41,928 nt of DNA from a virus, in the IMG/VR virus record IMGVR_UViG_3300027489_000004, positions 1 through 41,928 of that record. One strand, written 5' to 3'. The notes below the pieces were generated by a model, which searched no databases, was not told where the DNA came from, and saw nothing but the letters and a program-made list of their open reading frames with translations. Made by a program: the position numbers and the translations under genes. Below, piece after piece: positions 9,032 through 36,183 of this stretch. Position 1 is the stretch's first letter, and every line of letters begins with the position of its first letter.

Positions 9032-9588
9032 TGAGCCAGAATCCTCCAGAGGGTGAACAGGCCCAGGAACGCTTGAAGAAGCGGGAACAGGGCATTCAAA
9101 AATACAAGGAAATGCTTGCCGAATGCATAGCGAACGGCGACAAACTTGTGCCCCTCTGGAGGAATTCCCTCATCACTTCTGGGACATTCACTATCGCCAC
9201 CATCCGCCGCTGGGTGTATGAAGGGCGATTTCCCTTTATCAAAATTGGGCGGCGCAGATACACCAGTAACAAGGTGCTGGCCCAATGGATTCTAGACGGG
9301 CAGAAGGACAAGGAAGTCTTTTGCCTTGGCTATACCAAAACCCTTTCCAGGATTTCCTACCAATGGAAGGGTATTTACAGGAAGGCGCGGGAAGTCACCA
9401 ACGAGCGAAGGATTGCCGCTGGTCTTCCCCCGCTTCCTGAATGGCAGAATGACCCGCCAAGGGATGCTGTTCCACCACCGGAACCTGTCATTGAAAGTCA
9501 ACCTGAACCTGAACCAATGGTCAGGAAGGAAGTCATCGTAGAAGACCTCATGCCGTCTGATGAGGATTTGTATTCCGATCCAGGATAG
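9031..9588 (+). CDS. Excisionase-like winged-HTH protein (185 aa)
   Basis: TAATG overlap with the previous gene defines ATG 9031. Residues 50-90 read TFTIATIRRWVYEGRFPFIK, then IGRRRYTSNKVLAQWI, the helix-turn-helix plus wing of the MerR/excisionase (HTH_17) fold. Before it is a charged helical region; after it comes a basic helical part and a Pro/Glu-rich acidic tail (about 145-185). No integrase is visible in the window, so a role in excision is not supported. A replication initiator or origin-binding helper next to the primase gene is more likely. Confidence 0.6.
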   Translation: MSQNPPEGEQAQERLKKREQGIQKYKEMLAECIANGDKLVPLWRNSLITSGTFTIATIRRWVYEGRFPFIKIGRRRYTSNKVLAQWILDGQKDKEVFCLGYTKTLSRISYQWKGIYRKAREVTNERRIAAGLPPLPEWQNDPPRDAVPPPEPVIESQPEPEPMVRKEVIVEDLMPSDEDLYSDPG

Positions 9589-9601
9589 GAAGGGATAGGA
9601 A

Positions 9602-11599
9602 ATGGGATTCTCCGTTGCCGATGCCGTGCGTCTACTAGTTGGACCCGAATCTCTCACCGAGGTTCGGGTTCTTCTTCAATCCGCAGATGACCGAATCTGC
9701 CGGAACCAGTATTACCTGGGGTCGCAAGCCGAGGATGTTGCGCGGGATGTTCATCCCCTAGATCAGTTGTCGAACTGTATCGGGATTTACCTCATCCCCA
9801 ATCCGATTGATCCGAAACTGATTGACCGGAATACCAAGTGGCGCAAGCCATTCATTACCAAAATCCCATCCAGCAACCAGAGCAGTATGCTCTCCCGGCG
9901 ATGGATTTTGGTGGATTGCGATTCCATCCGGCCTGGAGAGTGTTCAGCAACCGAAGCCGAAAGAGTTGCTGCATTCGATCTGGCAGAAAATGTCATAGCC
10001 AGCCTGTCGGTTTTTGGCTTCGGCAATCCGATCAAGGCTGATTCCGGCAATGGTTGCCACTTGATATATCCCGTGGAAATGCCCCCGGATCAGCCCACAA
10101 GCCAGTTGATCAAGGAGTTTCTGGGGCAACTAACCAATCGATGCAAGGTGACCGGGGCCAAGGTTGATCCTGTCACCTGGGATTCCCAGCGCATGGTGCG
10201 ACTATACGGGACCAAGTCTCGCAAGGGTGAATCCACCCCGGATCGCCCTCACCGCTTGTCTGGGATCATTGACCCTGGAACACCGGATTCGGCTGGAATA
10301 AACACCAAGGCTTTCCACGCCGCTCTAGAGGCATGGCGGGAACAGGATCGACTGATCCAGGGAGACGGGCAACGCGACCCAGTCGAAGCTGCTCGAAAAT
10401 ATGTCAGCAGAATTGAAGGGGCAATATCCGGGGCTGGGGGCCACAACAAGACCTACAGGGTTGCCAGTCTTCTTGTGGAGGGTTTCGGCCTAACCGATGA
10501 TCAAGCATTCGGGGTAATGCAGGGCTGGAATACCTCATGCAAGCCGGAATGGTCAGAGCGCGATTTGAGACACAAAATTGAATCGGCTAGGGCGAAGGCC
10601 GATCAGAGCAAGATTGGCCACCTATTGGTCAAAAATCAGCCCACTACGGCGAAGCAGACGATACCGGACGGTGTTCAGAAAACGGATGCCACCGTTGCTG
10701 ACCTCATCCGCCTTGGACAGTCCCTCCAATGGTTGTGGCCAGGTTGGATTCAACGCGGTGTTCTGGTTGGCATTGCCGCTGAACCTGGGGCTGGAAAGAC
10801 AAGATTTTGTGCCGACATAGCTAGGCGGGTTAATCATGCCCTGCCTTGGCCGGATGGTACTGCCCCCACCCTGGATAGGGGCGCAAAGGTTATGTGGTTG
10901 TGCTGCGATGGTCAATGGGGAGAGATCACGCAGTTTCCGCAGCAATTTGGGATACCGCCCGAAGCGATTTACCTGAATAGCTGGAACCTTGATCCCACCG
11001 ATGGAACGGTGCTGGACGAGGCGAAGCAGTTCAAGGAGCTAGAGGAGCGCATCAATAGGACAGGGGTATCCCTTGTTTTCGTTGACACGGTGATGAACAG
11101 CACCACTCATAACACCACCCGTCCAGAGGAAGGGGTTAAGTATTTCAAGCCCTTGGCAGAAGTGGCGCAGAAGACCAACACAACAATAATTCTGGTGACG
11201 CACCTGTCTGCCGGTGGAGAGGCATTGGGGCGGCGCATCGTTGGCCAATGCCGACAGATGATCAGCCTGGAAAAGATCGAGGGGGAACCACACAACTCTC
11301 CAAAGAGGAAAATCTATGTCAGCAAATCCAATAGCGTGATTCCCCCAGAATTGACCGCGACTATGGGAAATTCCGGCAATGAATACGCCGGGGAAGCTTT
11401 GCGGGAAGAGGTCAGAAAAGTTGATCCTCATGCCTGGCTGGCGACCTATTTGAAGAGTGGCAAAAAGCCTATGGACTTGATCCTTATTGACTCAAAGCTG
11501 CATGGGATTGATGGTGCTGCTTTCGATGATGCAATCATGTATAAATCTGTAACTGATCAATCTCCGTATAAATGGACTAGGCTGATTAGGAGTGACTGA
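9602..11599 (+). CDS. Primase-polymerase fused to RecA-fold ATPase/helicase (665 aa)
   Basis: ATG 9602 follows AGGAAGGGATAGG. The N-terminal half is an archaeo-eukaryotic primase (PrimPol): metal-binding VDCD (Asp105, Asp107), SGNGCHLIYPVEMP (148-161) and a later basic part around RMVRLYGTKSRKG. The C-terminal half has Walker A AEPGAGKT (393-400), Walker B VFVDT (Asp495) and VTHLSAGG, as in RepA-like hexameric helicases. It probably initiates and primes phage DNA synthesis at the origin. With no DNA polymerase in the window, the host replicase presumably elongates, unless PrimPol also polymerises. Confidence 0.85.
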   Translation: MGFSVADAVRLLVGPESLTEVRVLLQSADDRICRNQYYLGSQAEDVARDVHPLDQLSNCIGIYLIPNPIDPKLIDRNTKWRKPFITKIPSSNQSSMLSRRWILVDCDSIRPGECSATEAERVAAFDLAENVIASLSVFGFGNPIKADSGNGCHLIYPVEMPPDQPTSQLIKEFLGQLTNRCKVTGAKVDPVTWDSQRMVRLYGTKSRKGESTPDRPHRLSGIIDPGTPDSAGINTKAFHAALEAWREQDRLIQGDGQRDPVEAARKYVSRIEGAISGAGGHNKTYRVASLLVEGFGLTDDQAFGVMQGWNTSCKPEWSERDLRHKIESARAKADQSKIGHLLVKNQPTTAKQTIPDGVQKTDATVADLIRLGQSLQWLWPGWIQRGVLVGIAAEPGAGKTRFCADIARRVNHALPWPDGTAPTLDRGAKVMWLCCDGQWGEITQFPQQFGIPPEAIYLNSWNLDPTDGTVLDEAKQFKELEERINRTGVSLVFVDTVMNSTTHNTTRPEEGVKYFKPLAEVAQKTNTTIILVTHLSAGGEALGRRIVGQCRQMISLEKIEGEPHNSPKRKIYVSKSNSVIPPELTATMGNSGNEYAGEALREEVRKVDPHAWLATYLKSGKKPMDLILIDSKLHGIDGAAFDDAIMYKSVTDQSPYKWTRLIRSD

Positions 11600-12228: not shown

Positions 12229-12441
12229 ATGGAAGATTTGCTTTTCCCTTCAGTTGGATGGCTAAACCTGTCCAAGCAGGAATTTCTGGATATCGCTGAT
12301 CGTGCTGGCGGTGTTCAGGATGTTGTCATCAAGGACGATCTGAAGCAGTTGATTGCTTTTTCCAAGCTGTTGATGAGAATCATCGACTGCCAGGACAAGC
12401 AGTTGCAGGCCTATGATCGTTCCGAGGTGGCAAGGTTTTGA
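12229..12441 (+). CDS. Small hypothetical protein (70 aa)
   Basis: ATG 12229 has AGGAGAGG nine bases upstream; an ATG at 12205 lacks such a site. The product is helical with an acidic/hydrophobic first half and a Leu-Ile-rich amphipathic helix (about 36-56), suggesting a small oligomeric protein. No motif is known. It is followed after 37 bases by the exported-protein gene. Confidence 0.5.
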   Translation: MEDLLFPSVGWLNLSKQEFLDIADRAGGVQDVVIKDDLKQLIAFSKLLMRIIDCQDKQLQAYDRSEVARF

Positions 12442-12478
12442 TCCGGTGGAACCGGGTTTTTCAGAAGGAGTCTTTGCC

Positions 12479-12823
12479 TTGAAGAAGTTTGCATTTGCCT
12501 TGTGTGCCGTTGCCGCTATTGCGGGGTATTCCCAGGCTGGGATTTTTCGCAAGCGGGCCACCACCGTCACCGCAGTCCAGGCGAAACCCGCCGCTGCCCA
12601 GGTGAAGGGTGATACCAGCACCGCGCAGGGTGTGGCGTTGCTGATCGTCCAGACTGGCCGTTTCCGCCACTTTGGAGGGTACAATGGTTTCGAGGGCATT
12701 GGCATGGGTTCTACCCCGGCGCAAGCCGAGGCCCAATGCTGCTACAGGAACCGCTTCACTCCCCGTGAGCGGGCCTTTGCCCAGATGCCCAACGGGATGT
12801 GGGTTTGCGTCTGCCGGTACTAA
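12479..12823 (+). CDS. Exported Cys-containing protein (114 aa)
   Basis: The start is taken as TTG 12479: AAGGAG lies eight bases upstream and the product then begins with a classic signal peptide (KKFAFALCAVAAIAGYSQA, cleavage likely after Ala20). The mature part has a GGYNGFEGIGMGSTPAQA loop (about 64-81), a CCY pair, and ends in WVCVCRY, giving four cysteines that could form disulfides. Similar short exported proteins with GFEGIG and CCY are, as I recall, common in planctomycetes; that is memory, not a search. In a phage it may alter the infected cell's envelope. Confidence 0.6.
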   Translation: MKKFAFALCAVAAIAGYSQAGIFRKRATTVTAVQAKPAAAQVKGDTSTAQGVALLIVQTGRFRHFGGYNGFEGIGMGSTPAQAEAQCCYRNRFTPRERAFAQMPNGMWVCVCRY

Positions 12824-13907: not shown

Positions 13908-14170
13908 TGCCTGAACCAGTTTGCTCCAGCATCGAACCCTTGATTCTATGCTATGTCTGGGGTATAGCTAGCCGCGCCCAGATTGCAGACTGGTTGGGTC
14001 TCAAAGAGGATGAGATTGATCCAATTCTTGAATATCTTCGCAGTAAGCTTGATCTGTTTCGCATTCTAGCGGAAGGACCGGCCATCCCTCATTACTCGAA
14101 ATCCTTGGACGATTGGTCACTTTTTCCAAGTAAGAAGCGCAATCCTCTTCCACCCCTGGATTGTAGCTGA
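13907..14170 (+). CDS. HTH-like small protein at end of rightward block (87 aa)
   Basis: ATG 13907 follows GGGAGGGGAG. Residues 18-50 (SRAQIADWLGLKEDEIDPIL) look like a helix-turn-helix of the winged/MarR-like kind, with Ile-Ala-Asp-Trp-Leu-Gly as helix and turn. The remaining part is Pro-rich. Its last 170 bases lie opposite the 3' end of the HNH gene, so the C-terminus of one of the two genes may be fortuitous. It is the last gene of the rightward block. Confidence 0.5.
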   Translation: MPEPVCSSIEPLILCYVWGIASRAQIADWLGLKEDEIDPILEYLRSKLDLFRILAEGPAIPHYSKSLDDWSLFPSKKRNPLPPLDCS

Positions 14171-14414
14171 ACCAGGACCGCAGATGCCCGAATGTGAAGT
14201 GGCAGTCACGGCACAAGGCAATCAAATTAGCCTCATCCAACTCTGCTCCGCCGAATAGCAGGGGTAGCTTGTGGTGCGCCTCAAGGGATTTTCTGGTTCC
14301 ACAGGCGGCGCAATGCTTTCCATGAATGAAGCGGGCGCGGAAGGCGGGCCACTCCGGTGAACGGACTTGTCCACCGAAGATCATCGTGCCAATGGAATAT
14401 AGCGTTTTCAGCAT
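14001..14414 (-). CDS. HNH endonuclease (137 aa)
   Basis: This metal-dependent nuclease has CAACGTRKSLEAHHKLP (35-51), with the HH pair at 47-48, Asn63 in ANLIALC, and CRDCH (68-72), closing with FGHLRSW. Cys35, Cys38, Cys68 and Cys71 form the structural zinc site. The layout matches the phage-associated HNH family often found near packaging or structural genes. ATG 14414 has no clear ribosome binding site, and a strong hairpin lies upstream, so expression may be low or separately controlled. Homing or packaging-related cleavage are both possible. Residues after about 82 are antisense to the convergent gene. Confidence 0.8.
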   Translation of the reverse strand: MLKTLYSIGTMIFGGQVRSPEWPAFRARFIHGKHCAACGTRKSLEAHHKLPLLFGGAELDEANLIALCRDCHFTFGHLRSWFSYNPGVEEDCASYLEKVTNRPRISSNEGWPVLPLECETDQAYCEDIQELDQSHPL

Positions 14415-14499: not shown

Positions 14500-14832
14500 T
14501 TAGTCCAACATTTCCTTGATGATCTTGAACGCAATGCGGGCGACCATCAGCCAGGGAACGATGCCAATGGCGGCAACATTCTGCCCATCGACAGTCTGAT
14601 CGCCACCCTGTTTCAGAACGCTGGTCAACAATTCCTCATCGGACAGTTTGGCCAATGCCTCGATTTCCCCGGCGACAACCTGGCCACCGCCGATGGATTG
14701 GGCGAGACCGTAGCCAAGGACATTCCAGGCGGCATGAACGAGATCGGGCAGGGAAACATCCTTGCCGCGAATCTTGTCGAGCATTAACAGCAATGCGTCC
14801 TGGGGAAACGAATTCGGATAGGGCAATAGCAT
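14500..14832 (-). CDS. Hypothetical protein with hydrophobic C-terminus (110 aa)
   Basis: ATG 14832 follows TAGGAG with good spacing. The N-terminal 80 residues are helical and slightly acidic. Near the end (about 86-106) a hydrophobic stretch VAAIGIVPWLMVARIAFKII could cross or lie on the membrane. It follows the cysteine peptidase gene, so it may belong to the lysis module, but a single C-terminal segment does not match a standard holin. Unknown function. Confidence 0.55.
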   Translation of the reverse strand: MLLPYPNSFPQDALLLMLDKIRGKDVSLPDLVHAAWNVLGYGLAQSIGGGQVVAGEIEALAKLSDEELLTSVLKQGGDQTVDGQNVAAIGIVPWLMVARIAFKIIKEMLD

Positions 14833-14842
14833 GGGTGGACTC

Positions 14843-15850
14843 CTAGAGAGATGACCAATCAATTACATCGACTTTTTGTTTGGGGAATCCCTTGATGGCA
14901 GAGAATGCCCAGGAATCCCCCTGCCGCAGCATCCCGTCGATTACGGATGCTTCAGCCCAAAAACCGCAGAGTGGGGGCGACCCTACGCCAGTTGGTCCCG
15001 TTGTCGCATTTGGTCCCCAGGAATTCTTGATCCAGCCACCTTCGCGTGGGCCGGTCTGATATCCCCAGAGTGCCATGCAATGATTCCAAACCCCAGATGC
15101 CTTGCAGAATCCATACTCGTCACGCTTCATAGAAAATCCGCGATTGGAGCAGATCGCAATGCCGTATCCCTGGGCCAATGCTTTCTTGGCAGATTCCCAA
15201 CTTTTAACCTTGGTGATTTCCTGGACAGGATTCACCTTTGAAACCTTCTCAAGGTCATCGGGCACTCCATTGTTCCCGAATTGGTCACACAAGGAGATAG
15301 AGTATTTCGAGAGATCGTAAGAACCATACTTTCCACGGGGCAAGATACCGTACTGCTTGACATACTCTGCGGCCCATGCCCCGATAGAACCCTGACCTCT
15401 TCCCAGTCTCCCATTCCCAATCTCAATCCTCGATCCTCCATAAACCACCTCCTGGCAGAGTTCCTTCCATTCCTCATGCGCCCCGCCATAAATCTGCATA
15501 ACCATGCTGGCCTCGACCGCAGCAACGGTTCCAAAACCAACACATGATCCATAATTTTTTTGGTTTTCTTCGTCTGGGTCTTTCCCGGTCACCAGCTTGT
15601 GAATCTTCCAGATGAAGACTTCTGGCGGAAGATCAGCCAGGGAGACCTCTCCAGCTGGAGTGTCAGCAAACGCTCCAAAGGGCTGGAGCGAGGCAATCTC
15701 GTCAACAGCTTCCGGGTCGTTAACCCAACCCAGGTTCTGGGGAGCCGGGAGACCGTGCCCAGGTTCTTCTACAGGCTGTTCCACCGGAGTAGGATCAATG
15801 CCCAACCCTGTGATCGGGGTTGGGGTTCCCATGTCATTCTCCTCGCTCAT
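14843..15850 (-). CDS. Papain-like cysteine peptidase (335 aa)
   Basis: The papain (C1) triad is visible in the right order: Cys103 in NYGSCVGFG with Gln97 just before it as the oxyanion residue, His257 in GVWNHCMALWGY, and Asn276 in WIKNSWGPN, whose NSWG motif is characteristic of C1 peptidases. The first 75 residues are Pro-rich and may be a pro-region or linker. The start overlaps the previous stop (ATGA) behind TGGAGG. There is no signal peptide. In this position, after the tail genes, it could cut cell-wall cross-links during lysis or process virion proteins. Unusual in a phage. Confidence 0.75.
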   Translation of the reverse strand: MSEENDMGTPTPITGLGIDPTPVEQPVEEPGHGLPAPQNLGWVNDPEAVDEIASLQPFGAFADTPAGEVSLADLPPEVFIWKIHKLVTGKDPDEENQKNYGSCVGFGTVAAVEASMVMQIYGGAHEEWKELCQEVVYGGSRIEIGNGRLGRGQGSIGAWAAEYVKQYGILPRGKYGSYDLSKYSISLCDQFGNNGVPDDLEKVSKVNPVQEITKVKSWESAKKALAQGYGIAICSNRGFSMKRDEYGFCKASGVWNHCMALWGYQTGPREGGWIKNSWGPNATTGPTGVGSPPLCGFWAEASVIDGMLRQGDSWAFSAIKGFPKQKVDVIDWSSL

Positions 15851-16548
15851 TGGATCGCCTCCAGAATCCTTGCTGCCCTTTCCAGCCTAGAAACGGCTAA
15901 ATCCCGAATGTTTTGATTCAGGATGGTATTCGGGTCGGTTGGCAGGTCTTTGTTGAATTCCTCGCCCATCCTGGCCCGAATATCCCGCAATGCGGTATTG
16001 GGCAGCATGGCGCGGGAAATCTCGATTGATCGCTGGAATGCCTGTCCAAGGGTGACGAAGCTGGGGTCTTTGTAGATTTGGGCAATCTGCCGATATGACT
16101 GGGCTAAGGCGGATTTGTTCTTTGCCTTATCGGTCTCGTTTAATGCCCCGTAAATGGCTTGAATTGCGTCTGCCAGCGGATCATTGATAGGAAGGTCGGG
16201 TTTGGTGGGATCGACGGGTTTTGGTGGCACTACGGGGCCAGGATTGCCAATAACCACCTCGATGGCAACGGGATCGGAAGGTTCGTCGCCCAAAGCGGTG
16301 AAACCGTAGAGGGTATACCTGCCGGGTAGATTGCAGGTGATAACAGTTGCCGTCTTGTCGGCTAGGAGTCCCGGCGGGAAAATGTTCACCCCGGGTGAGG
16401 TGGCAAAATATTTTACCGCTTTGCCGCTTAACTGGGTTGGTTTTATTACCACAAAGCTTCCCGGCTGGCCTTGAACCGGGGTGCTAAAGGTCAGAGTTGG
16501 TGGTTGGTTTGCGACAAATAGTAACAGGGTGGGTAGCAGACTGTTCAT
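15847..16548 (-). CDS. Exported planctomycete-type protein (233 aa)
   Basis: The start at ATG 16548 is fixed by ATGA overlap with the phosphoesterase stop. A hydrophobic N-terminus (NSLLPTLLLFVA) looks like a signal peptide. Residues 20-100 form an immunoglobulin-like beta domain (FPPGLLADKTATVITCNLPG, then GRYTLYGFTALGDEPSDPV), followed by a Pro/Val linker and a helical C-terminal domain of about 120 residues. I recall very similar two-part proteins in Gemmata-like planctomycetes. Its place in a phage late operon suggests a host-derived gene used on the cell surface or virion. Confidence 0.65.
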   Translation of the reverse strand: MNSLLPTLLLFVANQPPTLTFSTPVQGQPGSFVVIKPTQLSGKAVKYFATSPGVNIFPPGLLADKTATVITCNLPGRYTLYGFTALGDEPSDPVAIEVVIGNPGPVVPPKPVDPTKPDLPINDPLADAIQAIYGALNETDKAKNKSALAQSYRQIAQIYKDPSFVTLGQAFQRSIEISRAMLPNTALRDIRARMGEEFNKDLPTDPNTILNQNIRDLAVSRLERAARILEAIQ

Positions 16549-17396
16549 GTTTGGTATGCCCTCATGGTGCAATCAACTCCGGTATTCCGATCACGCAGAT
16601 ATCGCAACTCAAGCCACCACCCTCCAAGAGGGCGAGGACCGCGACCCTTCTCCGCATGATAACCATCATCCTCTATCTTATATGTTGAACTTCTCAGGAA
16701 TAGCTGCTGCCTGGAACAGACCACTCCGCTGTTGTTGATTCCGTAGACGATATTCTCGTCAAGGTTTCGCCTGTGAATGTGACCAGAGATGTAGACATCT
16801 GCTATATACATACCGCGGGTTCTAGAATTATCTATTAGGCCGCGTGTAATTTCCCCGCCTCCTCCAGCCCCGTGGTGAAAAAAGATAGTTTTACTCACTC
16901 TATTCTTTGGGTTCTCAACTAGGTTTGCCTGGACAAATCCCCAATACTTTCCAAGAAGGACGGGTGATTTGGCCCGCTTCAAGCCCGCGACGAATCGGGA
17001 GCAGACATCTGTGTCATGGTATTTCTCCCAGGATGTTTCATGGTTGCCCTTGGATACCAGGGCGATTACATCCTTGTAGGGTTCAAACCAGTCGATTGCA
17101 TCGTCGATTACTGTGTCGATGTAATTGTCTGTCTGGTGTTCAGGGCGCAAGGACTTGGCCGATTTCCGCTTATCGAACTTGCCCTGCATAATGTCGAATG
17201 TGTCGCCAATAAGAAGGACTGGGATTCCTTCCTTTTTAGCTTCTTCCAGGTCGCGCTTGAGAAGGTCACGGTTGCATTGAGCGGAGTCCCAATGCAGATC
17301 AGACAGGAGCATCACCTTGCTTCTATCGTTTGGCTTGATGCCGTCGAATTCCAGCTTGTAGGCGTGAGGATCGGTCTGCCGTATTGACCACTTCAT
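16545..17396 (-). CDS. Calcineurin-like metallophosphoesterase (283 aa)
   Basis: All five metal-binding motifs are present in order: SDLHWD (Asp33, His35), GDTFD (Asp65), GNHE (Asn118, His119), HHGAGG (His174/175) and GHIH (His206, His208). It hydrolyses phosphoester bonds; substrates of the family range from proteins to nucleotides and DNA. It is not fused to other domains. It follows the tail fibre and precedes the exported protein in the late operon, with stop and start overlapping. Possible roles are DNA-end processing or nucleotide signal removal. No transmembrane segment was seen. Confidence 0.85.
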   Translation of the reverse strand: MKWSIRQTDPHAYKLEFDGIKPNDRSKVMLLSDLHWDSAQCNRDLLKRDLEEAKKEGIPVLLIGDTFDIMQGKFDKRKSAKSLRPEHQTDNYIDTVIDDAIDWFEPYKDVIALVSKGNHETSWEKYHDTDVCSRFVAGLKRAKSPVLLGKYWGFVQANLVENPKNRVSKTIFFHHGAGGGGEITRGLIDNSRTRGMYIADVYISGHIHRRNLDENIVYGINNSGVVCSRQQLFLRSSTYKIEDDGYHAEKGRGPRPLGGWWLELRYLRDRNTGVDCTMRAYQT

Positions 17397-17438: not shown

Positions 17439-17573
17439 TTATTTCTTCTTCTTGCTCTTTCCGGCTTTCGAGAGCGCGATGGCAATGGCTTGCTTTTGTG
17501 GCTTGCCAGCCTTCATTTCTTTGCGGATGTTCTGACTTACAACCTTATTCGATGAACCTTTCTTCAACGGCAT
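17439..17573 (-). CDS. Short basic phage protein, DUF6496-like (44 aa)
   Basis: This small gene starts at ATG 17573, with a perfect AGGAGG five bases upstream. The product [20 protein letters not shown] continues with [18 protein letters not shown] and a run of lysines, a pattern I recognise from short phage proteins found near structural and DNA-metabolism genes (DUF6496-like). Function is unknown; the charge suggests nucleic-acid contact. It falls between the phosphoesterase and a tail protein and is below usual length cut-offs. Confidence 0.75.
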
Positions 17574-18427: not shown

Positions 18428-21400
18428 TCAAGTAGAAAGCTGTTGCAGCTTGGTGTTGGTCAGTCGTGCGGGGTAGTAGATGAGCTTGGCGATGTGGCCA
18501 GAAATTATGCCGCCAGTTTCTCCAGCCATTAGATACAACTTGTCTGTTGATGGGATTGTCCCTGAAGTATCAGTTCCAACCGCTGCCCCATTCGCAGACC
18601 CAGCAAAATCGTTAGCTTTATAAGCTAATGCTGACTTGCTAGGATTTGAATATGTTCCAATTGAGAAGTCAGCTTGTGTTACGCCAGAGGTGTACACATA
18701 TCCTCTCAGATCGGTGGCACCAGCCCTGTATAGTTGAATAATATTTGCCGGGTTTGATAGCGCAGTCCAAGCTCCAGTAGTCGCCGAAGAGAAGAAATCA
18801 AAGTCCGCAACTACACTCCCCTCCCCTTGATTCCACATTGATCCAAACGATGTCCCGGTGATCTGGCAGACATCGGCTGAACGGGTGACGGAGCTAGAAG
18901 TCGTTCCGGTGTAGGAGGTGGGGAATGCCCCCTGTTCTATCTGTGCGCCAAATACATACACTCCAGACGAACCATCGCCCGTGTAGGTAATCCCACCAGA
19001 AGTGTCCGAATTATATAAAAAGAAGTCAAATCTAGCTATTCCTGCCTGAACAGCAGTTGAAGTTACAGATAGCCTGTACCAACCATTTCCAACATTAGTG
19101 ACGCTGTAGGAATCACAGTTGTACTCGTTAGCAAAGCTGCCATCTGATAAATCAAACCTTCCCCTTACTGATTTCCCTGTAAATGCAAAAGAGTTATCAA
19201 AACCAAATCCAACAACTGACCTTCCATTAGCCTTTACAAAAATTGATGCTGTAACCGAAACCCCTGCGCCAGATGCCACCGATGCTGATGTCTGTTGCCT
19301 TAGCCAATGTGGGCCATTTGCCGTGTTTTCAGTTAGTAGGCTAGCCGTGCTGCCATCTGGGCCTGTTCCGCTGCTGCTAATGGATGAATCATATTTTTCC
19401 CAAACAGCATTAGAAAAAGTATTTGAAAAGTAGCAATTATTCGTCCTTTGCTCCTCCAGCAATAATCCCCTGCTGACCCATTGGCCACCGGAGTAGACAT
19501 GGTCGAATCGGGGGCCAGCGGTAGTTGATGCTTCAGTCTTGGCGTATTGAGTTGGGGATGCTGAATTTTCAACTTGCGCTCCCCAAAACAAAACCCCATC
19601 AGTCCCATTTGGTGTAACTGGTGTAGAACTGTTATCGGAATTAAAAATGCCAATTTGGTAATAAGACCAAGTTCCTGTAGCTGTTACGCTACATCTGTAC
19701 CAACCATTTCCAACATTTTGAATTGTGGCCGTGTAACCAGAACCAACAGTACCAACCACTCCATTCAAAACATCAAACCAAACATTAAAAACTGATCCAG
19801 TCAAATTGACAAATCCAATCCATCTTTTCCCTGCTGATTTTGCATAAATTGAAAATGTATTTGTTCCTGAAACATTTATGTTTCTATAAAATGTAACGCC
19901 AAGCGCACCGTTCGGATAAACCAAACTTGCGGTTTGCGTCCCATTTGGAGCAACATAATAATTTTGTATAATCGAAGTTGAAGCGGATTTCGTCCAATAT
20001 GCATTATCGAATTGTTCTGAATAATTAAGCAAATTCACATTCGCATATTTCAGCGTTCCAGTCGAATCAAAGTACGATCCAGTCGAAGCCCTGCTGAATG
20101 ATGGGGCAGGCCCAGCAACTGGAGTAAGCGTCTTATTGAGGGCGAATTGCAGATTGAGCGTTGGATCGGGTTCGCTGAGAAGTTGCAGCGTGGCATTCGG
20201 CAAGCGTTTGTTGTAATAGCGCAGGCGGGCGATGTGGCCGTTTAGATAATAATCACCAGTCCTTTGGCCAATTCTCAAATTAGATTGTCCTGCCGGTATT
20301 GCCACGCTCGTATCAAATAGCCCGTTTGATCCAGAATAAAAAGCTGCATCATTTAATTTCCATGTTGCTGAAGAATATACAGAAACATTTGCTGGAACTA
20401 CTTGATTATCGAGTAAAGCCTGTGTTCCCGCTGTAGTTATTACTGCGTAACGATTTTTATTTGACGCTGTAGAACCAGAAGTCCCGGTTACAAGTATTCT
20501 GTTGTTGTTTGTTCCGTCATCAACTTGCCACAAAAAAGACTCGCTCTGTGCGCTGCCAACAGATGGGCTGTAAAGATCGTATTCCGCTGCTACACTCCCC
20601 TCCGCCCCATTCCAGAATCCTGAAAAGTCCGTCCCAGTAATCTGGCAGACATCAGCGGAGCGGGTGGTTGATGCGGAGGTGGTGGGGATGTAGCTGGTGG
20701 GGAATGCGCCGGATTCGCCTTGCGCTCCCCATATCAAAATTCCGTTAGTTCCACTAGCTGTTGATGACAATGATCCATTTGCATCAGATACGCCAATTTG
20801 GAAGAATAAAAAACTTGACGATGTTGATGCCAGAGAGCATCTAAACCATCCATTGGAGCAGTTAATCATGCTGGCGGTTAGGCTGGTATTATTTGTTCCA
20901 ATCGCTCCATTTGCCAAATCAAACCAGCATACATAGACTCCGCTTAGATCGTAAAAATAAACAATGCTTTTCTCTGCTGCTTTTGCGAAAACCGATATGC
21001 ACGAATATGCAGCAGATCGGTAAATCCTTGTCATCGTTGTCGATGATGTCGGGTACATTTTTACAGCAGTATTTGTCCCATCTGGTGCTGTACCAGAGGA
21101 AGTTATTCTGGCAACATTTGAATCAACCCATGTGCTAGTAAAATCTGACGAATTTGTGACAAGGTTAGTCCTCTGCTCCTCCACCAGCAAACCACGAGAC
21201 ACCCAGCTTGTGCCGTTAAAGGTGTGATCGAAGCGGGGAGCGGAGTTTGCTGAGGAGGTGGTTGGAACATAAGTGCCAACGGTGGATGATGCTTCTAGTT
21301 GTGCGCCCCAGATGAAAATGCCTGACGATCCATTCCCAGCGTATTGCGGAAAACCTGAAGCAGACCAAGCTGCTGGATTAGCCGAATCACTTAATGCAAT

Positions 21401-21991
21401 GTGCGCCGTACCATTAGACCAGTTAATTGACCATGTGGCCCAACAGCGATACCAGCCATTGCCAACACTTTCAATTCCGTATGTGCCAGTTCCACCATTG
21501 ACGCTTCTTGTATTGGCAATTGTTCCATTTGACAAGTTGTAAACAACGGTAAACCTGCGGAGTGCCCCAGTACCTTCATAAAGCTGAATGCAGCCAAACG
21601 ATCTTTCCGCCGCCTTCATGTAAACACTTTGAGTGACAGGAGCCGAGACCGTTATTGGATTCCTGTATATGACCTTTTCATTGCTTGTGTTGTCATCGTA
21701 CAGCTTATCTGCCGTTGTTTTGCCGTCTGGAGCAACTGCTTGATTTGATGAAACATTTACGCTGTAAATTGACCAATAAGCATTGGTAAAATCTTCGCTG
21801 TAATTCAATAAGTTGACTGGCGCATACCGCAGCACCCCGCTCCCATCGAAGTAGCTGCCGGTGGATGCTCTGGAAAAACTGGGCGTGGGTCCACGATAAG
21901 CGGTCAAGGACTTATCCAAGGCGAAGCGCAGATCGAGGGCAGCGGATAAGCCGGGATTCGTGCGTCCAGCGTGGAGGAGTGGTAGGCTCAT
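18428..21991 (-). CDS. Large tail fibre/receptor-binding protein with internal duplication (1187 aa)
   Basis: The protein is built from two similar halves of about 590 residues: PSFSRASTGSYFD occurs at 37-49 and again at 630-642, followed each time by NLLNYSE. Each half has two modules with GNGWYRC or similar (NGWFRC), WGAQ-x-E and SYIPTT or similar, as in phage head-spike/tail-fibre sugar-binding domains, and a following TRSADVCQITGT and LamG-like beta sandwich. The first residues (MSLPLLHAGR) resemble fibre attachment ends. It would bind the host surface. Size, beta content and position support the role; the receptor is unknown. Confidence 0.75.
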   Translation of the reverse strand: MSLPLLHAGRTNPGLSAALDLRFALDKSLTAYRGPTPSFSRASTGSYFDGSGVLRYAPVNLLNYSEDFTNAYWSIYSVNVSSNQAVAPDGKTTADKLYDDNTSNEKVIYRNPITVSAPVTQSVYMKAAERSFGCIQLYEGTGALRRFTVVYNLSNGTIANTRSVNGGTGTYGIESVGNGWYRCWATWSINWSNGTAHIALSDSANPAAWSASGFPQYAGNGSSGIFIWGAQLEASSTVGTYVPTTSSANSAPRFDHTFNGTSWVSRGLLVEEQRTNLVTNSSDFTSTWVDSNVARITSSGTAPDGTNTAVKMYPTSSTTMTRIYRSAAYSCISVFAKAAEKSIVYFYDLSGVYVCWFDLANGAIGTNNTSLTASMINCSNGWFRCSLASTSSSFLFFQIGVSDANGSLSSTASGTNGILIWGAQGESGAFPTSYIPTTSASTTRSADVCQITGTDFSGFWNGAEGSVAAEYDLYSPSVGSAQSESFLWQVDDGTNNNRILVTGTSGSTASNKNRYAVITTAGTQALLDNQVVPANVSVYSSATWKLNDAAFYSGSNGLFDTSVAIPAGQSNLRIGQRTGDYYLNGHIARLRYYNKRLPNATLQLLSEPDPTLNLQFALNKTLTPVAGPAPSFSRASTGSYFDSTGTLKYANVNLLNYSEQFDNAYWTKSASTSIIQNYYVAPNGTQTASLVYPNGALGVTFYRNINVSGTNTFSIYAKSAGKRWIGFVNLTGSVFNVWFDVLNGVVGTVGSGYTATIQNVGNGWYRCSVTATGTWSYYQIGIFNSDNSSTPVTPNGTDGVLFWGAQVENSASPTQYAKTEASTTAGPRFDHVYSGGQWVSRGLLLEEQRTNNCYFSNTFSNAVWEKYDSSISSSGTGPDGSTASLLTENTANGPHWLRQQTSASVASGAGVSVTASIFVKANGRSVVGFGFDNSFAFTGKSVRGRFDLSDGSFANEYNCDSYSVTNVGNGWYRLSVTSTAVQAGIARFDFFLYNSDTSGGITYTGDGSSGVYVFGAQIEQGAFPTSYTGTTSSSVTRSADVCQITGTSFGSMWNQGEGSVVADFDFFSSATTGAWTALSNPANIIQLYRAGATDLRGYVYTSGVTQADFSIGTYSNPSKSALAYKANDFAGSANGAAVGTDTSGTIPSTDKLYLMAGETGGIISGHIAKLIYYPARLTNTKLQQLST

Positions 21992-32964: not shown

Positions 32965-34308
32965 TTAGGCGTTGTTGTTCTTGACGGTGTGCCAAGGACT
33001 CCAGACGCTGGGGATACCCCGCTCGTTGGCGAAGTAGGTGGCCACAATGCCCCGATCCAGCATCTCGTACTGGTTCGGCGCGGCCTGGGTCACGGTCAGC
33101 GGGAAGTTCTGCATATACTTGAAGGACTTCCCAGCCTCCATCATAAACCACAGACCATCGGTGTTGGCCTGGTTCAGGTTCAGACCATCCGATGCCAGGC
33201 AACGCTGCTCGATCAGCGGGCTGGACAGGATCGTGAACTGTCCAGAGTAAGGATTGCCGGTCGAGGAGGCGACATTCAAGCTCACCGCGCTGGACTGGGT
33301 TGCCCCAGGAGCGGTGCGAAGCTCCGTGCCGGAAGCACCCAAGATCAGCTGGGCGGTTGCCAGACGCGCCGGGTTCACCAGGACGGTGTTCGGCGTGATC
33401 AGCAGACGCTTGCCGGTATGGGGGTCTTCCATGCGGCTGAACAGGAGGCTGGCGGATTGGATCGAGGTCCAGTCCACCAACTGGTTGGTGTGGGCGTTGA
33501 GGTAGCCCAAGGTGCGGCTGGTCTGGTAGGTGTTGTAACCAGTCCCGTTGTAGATGAACGGGTTGGTCACACCCAGGACCGCGTCGATGACTTCCAGTTC
33601 TTTGCGGTAGGCGAGTTCTTCGCCAACGCTGGATGCCATCTGGAGAACCTGGCCGGTCAGGTCGAAGAAGACGGTCTCCTTCAACACATCAATAGCCAGA
33701 GCGTTCTCACGGGTTTCGGGAGTGGTGATCCACCTCTCACCGAATTGGGCGCGGGTAGTGGTCTCACCGGGGGCGCGTTTCTTGGCGCGGTCACCGATAT
33801 TCTGCACCCCGATCACCTTCTGACCGTTGAGCTTCGTGGACTCAACAGGCATCAGACGGTCGGCAATCAAGGCAGGGTTCTGGAAGGCTTCCAGAATCTT
33901 GACCTCGACCAGGCCACCGACGATGCCGGTGAATGTGTTGATGTTGAGGAACGCGCTGGGATCGAGACCGAAACCAGTCGCCTCAACCAAGGCCCGCTTG
34001 TCGCCAGCGTATCCGTTCGCTTCCATCATGGAACGGGCAGCGGTGTACTGGCCCATTGCACGGGAATCGGGGCTGAAAAGCTGCCGCCAGCTAGGCCCGA
34101 TGATCGCCTCGGCCAGTTCCTGGAGGCTGAAATTTTCGGGACGCAAGGCCCGATCCTTCAGCGTCAGGTTACCGGCGAAGTCGCGATTGTCGTTGCCGTC
34201 CTTGTCGCAAAGGCCAAGACCCTGGCGCATTTCGGTCAGGAAACGCCAGCGACCATTGGTCTCCTTGGAGCGGGACTCAAACAGGTCACGAAGCTTGATC
34301 ACATTCAT
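32965..34308 (-). CDS. Major capsid protein (447 aa)
   Basis: Position (after protease and decoration genes, before connectors), size and pattern support an HK97-type capsid protein. ATG 34308 has GGGAGA eight bases upstream. Residues 1-110 are charged and helical like an N-arm or delta domain. TGIVGGLVEVKILEAFQNP (126-144) and a Glu-Leu-Ala-Tyr-Arg region (about 226-250) match the E-loop/P-domain helix layout. LITPNTVLVNPARLATAQLI looks like the spine helix and following strand. The closest comparison I can make is Mu-type head subunits. No protease site could be fixed by eye. Confidence 0.8.
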   Translation of the reverse strand: MNVIKLRDLFESRSKETNGRWRFLTEMRQGLGLCDKDGNDNRDFAGNLTLKDRALRPENFSLQELAEAIIGPSWRQLFSPDSRAMGQYTAARSMMEANGYAGDKRALVEATGFGLDPSAFLNINTFTGIVGGLVEVKILEAFQNPALIADRLMPVESTKLNGQKVIGVQNIGDRAKKRAPGETTTRAQFGERWITTPETRENALAIDVLKETVFFDLTGQVLQMASSVGEELAYRKELEVIDAVLGVTNPFIYNGTGYNTYQTSRTLGYLNAHTNQLVDWTSIQSASLLFSRMEDPHTGKRLLITPNTVLVNPARLATAQLILGASGTELRTAPGATQSSAVSLNVASSTGNPYSGQFTILSSPLIEQRCLASDGLNLNQANTDGLWFMMEAGKSFKYMQNFPLTVTQAAPNQYEMLDRGIVATYFANERGIPSVWSPWHTVKNNNA

Positions 34309-34336
34309 TGTTCTAGTTCTCCCTTATTGGCTTGTA

Positions 34337-34876
34337 TTAGACGGAGGTGGTGTTGTTGTAGTCAGCGAAGTTGTAGGGCGACCACCGCCCGATCAACCTG
34401 ACGCGAACCTTGGTGGTGTTGCTGGCATAACGCTCCACCACATAACCCAGGGCTTCACCGGCATCGGTGGTCTTCACCAGGGATTGGCTAGCCACATTCC
34501 CGGCCCCGGCAGCGGCAGTCACCGAAGCGGCAACCAGATCGCCAGGCTCGAAAGTGGCAGCAGCGCAATCAGCCTCGTAAAGAGCATCGGGAGCGAAGGT
34601 GATGCCTTCACCGTTGAAAGCGGGGTAACCACCGGAAGTGTCAGCGGCAAGCTTGCCTTGCAGGGCCACTCCAGCGAAGACGGCGCGAATGGCAGCTTGA
34701 TCGGTGTTAACCGTGCCGGTTGCCACATACTGGTCAAAGGGCTTCAGCACCTTGTTGGTTGTATCCCAGAACAGCAAATCGCCAACGCTGATGGCAACGG
34801 ATGCCACGCTAGGCAGGTTCATCACGGTATCGGAAGCTGGCTTGTACAGCTTCGATCCACCAAAAGCAGTTCCCAT
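34337..34876 (-). CDS. Head decoration protein (179 aa)
   Basis: An Ala/Gly/Val-rich beta protein directly before the capsid gene, where decoration or stabilising proteins sit. It contains DLLFWDTTNKVLKPFDQ (33-49), FAGVALQGKLAAD (67-79) and YVVERYASNTTKVRVRLIGRW, with strand patterns like the parasitic-protein type found on many metagenomic phage heads. A strong AAAGGGG ribosome binding site supports high expression, as expected for a virion component. Confidence 0.6.
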   Translation of the reverse strand: MGTAFGGSKLYKPASDTVMNLPSVASVAISVGDLLFWDTTNKVLKPFDQYVATGTVNTDQAAIRAVFAGVALQGKLAADTSGGYPAFNGEGITFAPDALYEADCAAATFEPGDLVAASVTAAAGAGNVASQSLVKTTDAGEALGYVVERYASNTTKVRVRLIGRWSPYNFADYNNTTSV

Positions 34877-34896: not shown

Positions 34897-36183
34897 TTAG
34901 TTTGCCAACCAACGGAACAAGGAATCACCTTCAGGAAACTTCTTGCTACCCTCTTTCGACTCCTGGAAGGTAGCCTGAGTGGGTGAGCATTTGGGTTTCG
35001 CGGCGAGATTCGCAGCGGCAATCCGCTTGATCTGCCGCTCCAAGGACTCCGGGCTAAGACCACCAAGGTCTTGAACCAGAGACTCTTCAAACTCGACTCC
35101 GTTGGACTCGCAAAGAGTACGGATGGCATCCTTGGTCTTGTAGTGTGCGAGTTCGGCTGAAGGATCGATGGACTCCTTCATGGCTTTCTTTTCTTCTTCC
35201 TCGTCGGACATATCCTCGTCCGGCTTTTCCTCGTCCATCGACTCCATCTTCGCGCCGCACTTCTCGCACATCTTGGCGTAATCGCCTTCCTTCATCTTCT
35301 CGTCTTCTTTGCCATAGCTCCCCTCGGTTACGGGAGACTCTTCGGCCTTGGTTTCTTCCTGGACGCTCTCTTGCGCTTCCATGTCATAATCCCCTGCTTC
35401 ACCAGTTAAAATGGCAACAATTTCATCCGCTTTCTTGTCATCGGGCGTGTCGTTCTTTGTCAGAATCTGCATGATCATCTGATGCATTTCCTTGGCATCT
35501 TCAGATTCGTCATCAGATTCCTTCAGAGTCCCGGTCGGCTTTTTAGCCCCCTTGGACTTGGCTTTCACGAATTTGCGTTTCGCGCCAACAGCCTGTCTTT
35601 TGCTCTTGTAACGAACTCGATTTCCCGCCGCTTCTTCTGTTTCCTGCTCACTTGGCGATTGCGATTCCGTAAGCGATTTAGTTGTTGCCGGGTCTGCAAC
35701 GAGATCGACATGGCGAACCTCGGTGATCCTGGAAACCACAAAAATGTCGTTCTTGTCCACCGTGCCCTCACCCTGGGCGTTGTGGCTCATTCCGAATACA
35801 TCGTTCATCTCTTCCCTTTCCGCCGCCTCGCAAACCGAATCGGCTAGGGGATGATTCTTCAGGTAGAGGAGATCGCCGTAGATTCCCTCACTCTCCACGA
35901 AGCGGACATTGATGAATTTCCCGAAACGGTCATGGCTCGACCTCTGCTGGGTCGGACCTTTCTCCGGGTGATCAATGTTAACCTTGATCCCCTCATACAG
36001 GGGAACCGCTTCCTTGAGTGCTTCCGGCAGATACCGGCGACCATTCTGGGAGTTGAACCCGATGATCTTCACACCCTTGATGATACCCTTATCGCGGTCA
36101 ACAACGAGCTTTTTCCCAGGTTGGATTGCTCCAAACTGGAAGATGCCCTGCAACTCTTCGACCAATAATTGGGTACTTTGCAT
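34897..36183 (-). CDS. Prohead protease fused to scaffold (428 aa)
   Basis: The N-terminal 170 residues follow the herpesvirus/phage assembly protease fold: KVNIDHPEKGPTQQRSSHDR (67-86) with candidate His72, GMSHNA (131-136) with candidate nucleophile Ser133, and HVDLVADPATTKSL (158-171) near the end of the domain. Residues 175-380 are Lys/Glu-rich and very acidic, like a scaffolding protein, and the last 45 residues are helical and could bind capsid protein. Such single-gene fusions are known in siphophages. A 6-bp stem CTTGAC/GTCAAG (36200-36205, 36213-36218) overlaps the preceding stop. The ribosome binding site is weak. Confidence 0.75.
   Translation of the reverse strand: MQSTQLLVEELQGIFQFGAIQPGKKLVVDRDKGIIKGVKIIGFNSQNGRRYLPEALKEAVPLYEGIKVNIDHPEKGPTQQRSSHDRFGKFINVRFVESEGIYGDLLYLKNHPLADSVCEAAEREEMNDVFGMSHNAQGEGTVDKNDIFVVSRITEVRHVDLVADPATTKSLTESQSPSEQETEEAAGNRVRYKSKRQAVGAKRKFVKAKSKGAKKPTGTLKESDDESEDAKEMHQMIMQILTKNDTPDDKKADEIVAILTGEAGDYDMEAQESVQEETKAEESPVTEGSYGKEDEKMKEGDYAKMCEKCGAKMESMDEEKPDEDMSDEEEEKKAMKESIDPSAELAHYKTKDAIRTLCESNGVEFEESLVQDLGGLSPESLERQIKRIAAANLAAKPKCSPTQATFQESKEGSKKFPEGDSLFRWLAN

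Follow-up and report, generated by a model that had tools for sequence, protein, structure and literature searches.

What function a papain-type cysteine peptidase could serve in the late operon of a virus is the question raised by the viral sequence analyzed here (IMG/VR record IMGVR_UViG_3300027489_000004; the entire 41,928-nucleotide stretch is referred to as the window). An initial sequence-only reading proposed that a 335-amino-acid protein encoded in the window carries a complete C1-type catalytic triad. The open reading frame and its coordinates proved to be correct, and the gene, whose strand had not been given, was located on the minus strand (Table 1). Besides the strand, the present analysis added a predicted oxyanion-hole glutamine, a tightly linked upstream partner gene, and membrane-anchored relatives.

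Table 1. Coordinates, strand, and characteristics of features in the window.
Position	Strand	Feature	Basis or remark
12413-12823	plus	Small secreted protein with GFEGIGMG...CCYR motif	Common to related phages (L023:9898-10248); presumably resembles planctomycete secreted proteins
14001-14414	minus	HNH endonuclease	Conserved downstream of the cassette
14500-14832	minus	Conserved 110-aa protein, hydrophobic C-terminus	Just downstream of the C1 peptidase gene
14843-15850	minus (read 15850→14843)	C1 (papain-family) cysteine peptidase, 335 aa	Sequence, alignment, profiles, model
15847-16548	minus	Partner protein (233 aa); from N- to C-terminus, a hydrophobic signal-like segment, an Ig-like domain, a Pro-rich linker, and a helical domain	
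16545-17396	minus	Calcineurin-like metallophosphoesterase (PF00149)	4-bp overlap with partner gene (ATGA type)
17439-17573	minus	Lys-rich small ORF, 44 codons, between tail genes and phosphoesterase	Sequence reading only
18428-21991	minus	1187-aa tail protein	Two similar halves, each about 590 aa
21992-22267	minus	91-aa protein, N-terminal membrane segment and coiled coil	Candidate holin- or spanin-like protein
32965-34401	minus and plus	Two long ORFs overlapping on opposite strands	447 aa (minus), 470 aa (plus)
34897-36183		Prohead-protease-like protein (phrog_29592)	Assigned by inspection

The active-site motifs NQKNYGSC (Q97, C103), WNHCM (H257), and IKNSWG (N276) occur in the order known from papain, i.e., oxyanion glutamine, nucleophile, histidine, and asparagine, with Q97 at the canonical C-6 position. 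C103, H257, and N276 were thus found where the sequence-only reading had placed them. In a 44-row family alignment, the four catalytic columns were invariant among ungapped rows (Q97 41/41, C103 42/42, H257 43/43, N276 44/44), a pattern that, judged from the alignment, exceeds chance. The only Pfam match of the protein was Peptidase_C1 (PF00112; E = 0.0027), with a score of 18.2 bits against a cut-off of 20.7, while a 50% identical homologue (L023, on the same contig as L102) scored 29.3 bits and thereby exceeded the gathering threshold. C1 profile matches were obtained for 13 of 26 family members. No match to CHAP, NlpC/P60, or any recognised muralytic domain was found in the protein by the Pfam scan.

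Profile searches against the PDB retrieved enzymes of the papain family, and in the alignments the Cys and His/Asn motifs coincided. An AlphaFold model (pLDDT 88, pTM 0.86) gave xylellain as best Foldseek match in the PDB (E = 1.5e-11), followed by cathepsins, with a probability of 1.00; the top matches were all C1 peptidases, to most of which the protein is 13-18% identical. Membership of the C1 (papain) family, on which predicted fold and residue set agree, is therefore well supported, and the enzyme would, from its residues, be catalytically competent. Fold and Q-C-H-N order of the active site are shared with members of MEROPS C1/PF00112 such as xylellain (3ois), cathepsins, papain, and Lpg2622. 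In contrast to typical C1 peptidases, the window protein scored below the Pfam cut-off, showed no Pfam match to an I29 propeptide domain, and has an additional N-terminal region with a conserved GW at residues 41-42. Helical I29-type propeptides are typical of many C1A enzymes but do not define all C1 members. The Pro-rich N-terminal extension that had been noted earlier is present; it is, however, disordered in the model (residues 1-36, pLDDT <50) and missing from almost all homologues, so that it is not a feature of the family.

A C1 peptidase had been regarded as unusual for a phage, a view that found no support in this form. ORF382 of Xanthomonas phage XacN1, likened to the window protein by annotation alone, is annotated as a C1 peptidase (PMC5852040), and structure matches in BFVD included several C1-like proteins of uncultured phages, some of them named N-acetylmuramidase or peptidoglycan-binding protein; for A0A6J5TCZ4, A0A8S5PQA2, and A0A873WLH1 the papain-family likeness is one of structure only. 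The occurrence of C1 peptidases in phages is therefore not new, whereas the present family, with its previously unrecognised partner gene, is: for the annotated phage C1 peptidases, no conserved secreted partner has been described.

A single-sequence scan of viral contigs was unsuccessful, and homologues were reached via a tail-protein scan that led to L023, from which a two-row profile was built. This profile yielded 43 environmental viral contigs and a 26-row profile yielded 37 contigs of bacterial genomes, together 80 further homologues. No sequence relatives were found among 50,697 named phage records, and PHROGs held no family for the peptidase. The catalytic residues were invariant across homologues except in one variant (L114:6709-7527), in which a 27-residue internal deletion removes the catalytic His and which may represent an assembly error or an inactive copy. 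Apart from a Mucilaginibacter scaffold and several metagenome-assembled contigs of other phyla, the bacterial homologues belonged mostly to Gemmataceae or other Planctomycetota. A planctomycete is therefore the most likely host, as had been anticipated, and the virus probably infects planctomycete bacteria. In the Limnoglobus family, 36 of 95 genomes gave a peptidase match, some with several copies; two of the 36 were marginal (E about 3e-4) and one was an end fragment.

The partner gene overlaps the start of the peptidase gene by 4 bp (ATGA). Clustering placed its homologues next to the peptidase gene in 45 of 61 non-redundant loci and a profile did so in 49 of 61; they were also adjacent in 9/9 further host loci. 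Several of the 12 loci that remained without a partner begin at a contig end. In three loci (L128, L130, L136), the 91-aa membrane protein of Table 1 is encoded in place of the partner, directly upstream of the peptidase; in L148, L118, L117, and L120, another secreted or lipoprotein-like ORF was found, with a similar helical C-terminus (a weak similarity, judged partly by eye). In L109, L112, and L101, partner and peptidase shift as a unit between other late genes. The partner was modelled as an Ig-like domain followed by a five-helix domain; the helical domain is what the homologues have in common, and the Ig part varies. A PDB profile search with the partner gave nothing convincing, and its profile was too variable for a scan of the collection. 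Assignment of a function from the Ig-like domain was dropped, as this domain resembles many Ig folds and is not indicative. A reading as chagasin-type inhibitor was also abandoned, because the signature motifs were not seen on inspection. We infer that the partner acts in trans as a pro-domain, chaperone, or anchor.

The gene order shared by the window and its nearest relatives was tail, 111 aa, 169 aa, phosphoesterase, partner, C1 peptidase, 110 aa, and HNH. In related phages, the metallophosphoesterase serves as a landmark for the lysis neighbourhood: in relatives without the C1 peptidase, the next gene encoded GH108, Amidase_2, a PG_binding protein, or DUF5675. An earlier count of this slot (26/75 loci) was biased, because the seeds came from the slot itself, and searches of whole records were relied on instead. 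Thirty whole virus records with the phosphoesterase but without C1 contained 11 Amidase_2/GH108 matches, whose positions were mapped by hand from contig ranges. Nine of the 11 lay close to the phosphoesterase gene (about 1.2 kb at most): six immediately downstream of it, two immediately upstream, and one next to it on the opposite strand; the remaining two were at other sites. The placement in the late operon that had been noted earlier corresponds to the site at which related phages keep their lysis enzymes. Some proteins at the lysis position (L182:6387-6977, L024:3231-3842, L204:9004-9642) share an NxHxAG...WSxGCQV motif, sometimes with a PG_binding domain and mostly without a Pfam catalytic family; they are possibly an unnamed type of lysin.

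No canonical muralytic domain was detected in 57 scanned ORFs of the window (Pfam scan, among 25/29 families listed). Likewise, Amidase_2, GH108, Phage_lysozyme, M23, and NlpC/P60 were absent from 15 records of phages with the C1 peptidase (32-60 kb), in a search of these five families that a fast-diverging or unlisted lysin could escape and whose positive controls matched for every family except GH108. Its position in the lysis slot and the lack of a recognised lysin therefore make the C1 peptidase the best lysin candidate.

Hydropathy analysis indicated no signal peptide or N-terminal signal-anchor in the window peptidase, while in 25 of 81 family members (two from viral contigs, 23 from host loci) the GW motif is preceded by a hydrophobic N-terminal segment. 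On a quick tree with weak deep branches, this trait changed at least seven times. The anchored relatives resemble signal-anchored (SAR) endolysins, and the two variants may by analogy parallel signal-anchored and cytosolic endolysins. Two host loci (L153, in Pan216, and L134) adjoin terminase, portal, tape-measure, or virion genes, and two of the four peptidase copies in genome G077 have tail-fibre genes at a distance of about 1.5 kb; these copies are therefore located in prophages. A different context was found in Gemmataceae chromosomal DNA, where three loci with shared flanking genes (L121, L131, L129; about 9250-11450) carry the pair of partner and peptidase, together with a third small secreted gene, surrounded by housekeeping genes. 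The scanned neighbours encode RNase E/G, an aldo-keto reductase, MoaA, DUF1501, GNAT, and a kinase; none of them is a recognised phage gene, which suggests domestication or a host origin, between which the tree does not decide. The role of the cassette may therefore exceed lysis.

We propose, with a probability of roughly 0.6, that phages of Gemmataceae-like planctomycetes carry a late lysis cassette in which the C1 peptidase serves as lytic enzyme, either alone or as one of several. The peptidase would be translated via the ATGA overlap with the secreted Ig-like/helical partner. In the window phage, the signal-less enzyme would reach the periplasm via a pore in the inner membrane (candidate holin), while in many prophage relatives it would carry its own N-terminal membrane anchor. 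Its periplasmic targets would be envelope peptide bonds, either in peptidoglycan stem peptides and cross-links or in planctomycete envelope proteins, and the partner may hold, fold, or restrain the peptidase via the helical domain. Lysis role, export route, substrate, and partner function are all conjectural parts of this proposal; the lytic reading is supported by fold, invariant residues, linkage to the partner, genomic position, anchored variants, absence of any other lysin searched for, and the cell-wall names of some BFVD structure matches. Counting against it are the D-residues of peptidoglycan stems, as the substrates of true C1 peptidases are ordinary L-peptides, and the comparison phages of the slot argument, which probably infect other bacteria; moreover, a second, C39-like cysteine peptidase (PF03412) is encoded shortly downstream of C1 in two relatives (L023:4466-5005, the same contig as L102, and L111:13373-13801). 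The envelope of planctomycetes is unusual and, although long thought to be without peptidoglycan, does have it (PMC4432640). The sequence-only reading had suggested that the enzyme may suit the peptide-cross-linked wall of such a host.

An alternative is a lysogeny or fitness gene (moron), also domesticated in chromosomes, whose product would be an exported protease that, with its partner, alters the surface of the host, prevents superinfection, or benefits the host. The many Limnoglobus-family genomes that carry the peptidase, in part in multiple copies, and the chromosomal loci without phage genes among the scanned neighbours agree with such a role; the location of the viral-contig copies in the late operon and lysis neighbourhood, the lack of another lysin of the families searched in these phages, and the presence of several host copies within prophages speak against it, and we consider it unlikely. 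We regard as rather unlikely, too, that the enzyme is packaged in or on the particle and degrades protein layers of the host surface during adsorption or DNA entry. Planctomycete envelopes are rich in protein, and the peptidase gene lies downstream of tail-fibre genes and, in L109, L112, and L101, between structural-type genes and a tail gene. However, the peptidase is not fused to any structural module, its gene is coupled by 4 bp to that of a secreted partner, and the membrane anchor of many relatives is at odds with packaging in virions.

Processing of capsid or tail precursors in the cytoplasm by a maturation protease would fit the late-operon location and the missing signal peptide, but appears highly improbable: the window contains a separate prohead-protease-like gene (Table 1), the upstream partner is secreted, homologues are anchored in the membrane, and chromosomal copies occur without phage structural genes among the scanned neighbours. 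The lytic reading is thus retained, with the term endolysin probably describing the mode of working rather than an established membership. Endolysins of the papain-like superfamily (CHAP, NlpC/P60, Amidase_5) are similar to the window protein in clan-level fold, probable role, and genomic place; the families differ, as the window protein has the Asn and NSWG of a true C1 peptidase. PeiW and PeiP, which we take to belong to family C71, are also cysteine peptidases with which viruses lyse cells by cleaving cross-links in the wall, but come from another family and act on archaeal hosts. They appear as archaeal-virus pseudomurein endoisopeptidases in the title of a cited work (PMC10318531, reference 100).

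Neither a C1-type endolysin nor the way in which planctomycete phages lyse their hosts was described in the literature searched. A broader proposal, which we advance tentatively and at less than even odds, is that, across planctomycete phages and prophages, all standard lysins are replaced by a lysis system made of a true papain-family peptidase and its own secreted partner, the helical domain of which would act in trans as anchor, chaperone, or restraint, and that this system has been kept in some host chromosomes. The peptidase family provides a concrete candidate lysis enzyme, with a candidate partner gene and active-site residues that are open to testing. If the lytic reading is true, the classical papain family would join the enzymes used by phages for lysis.
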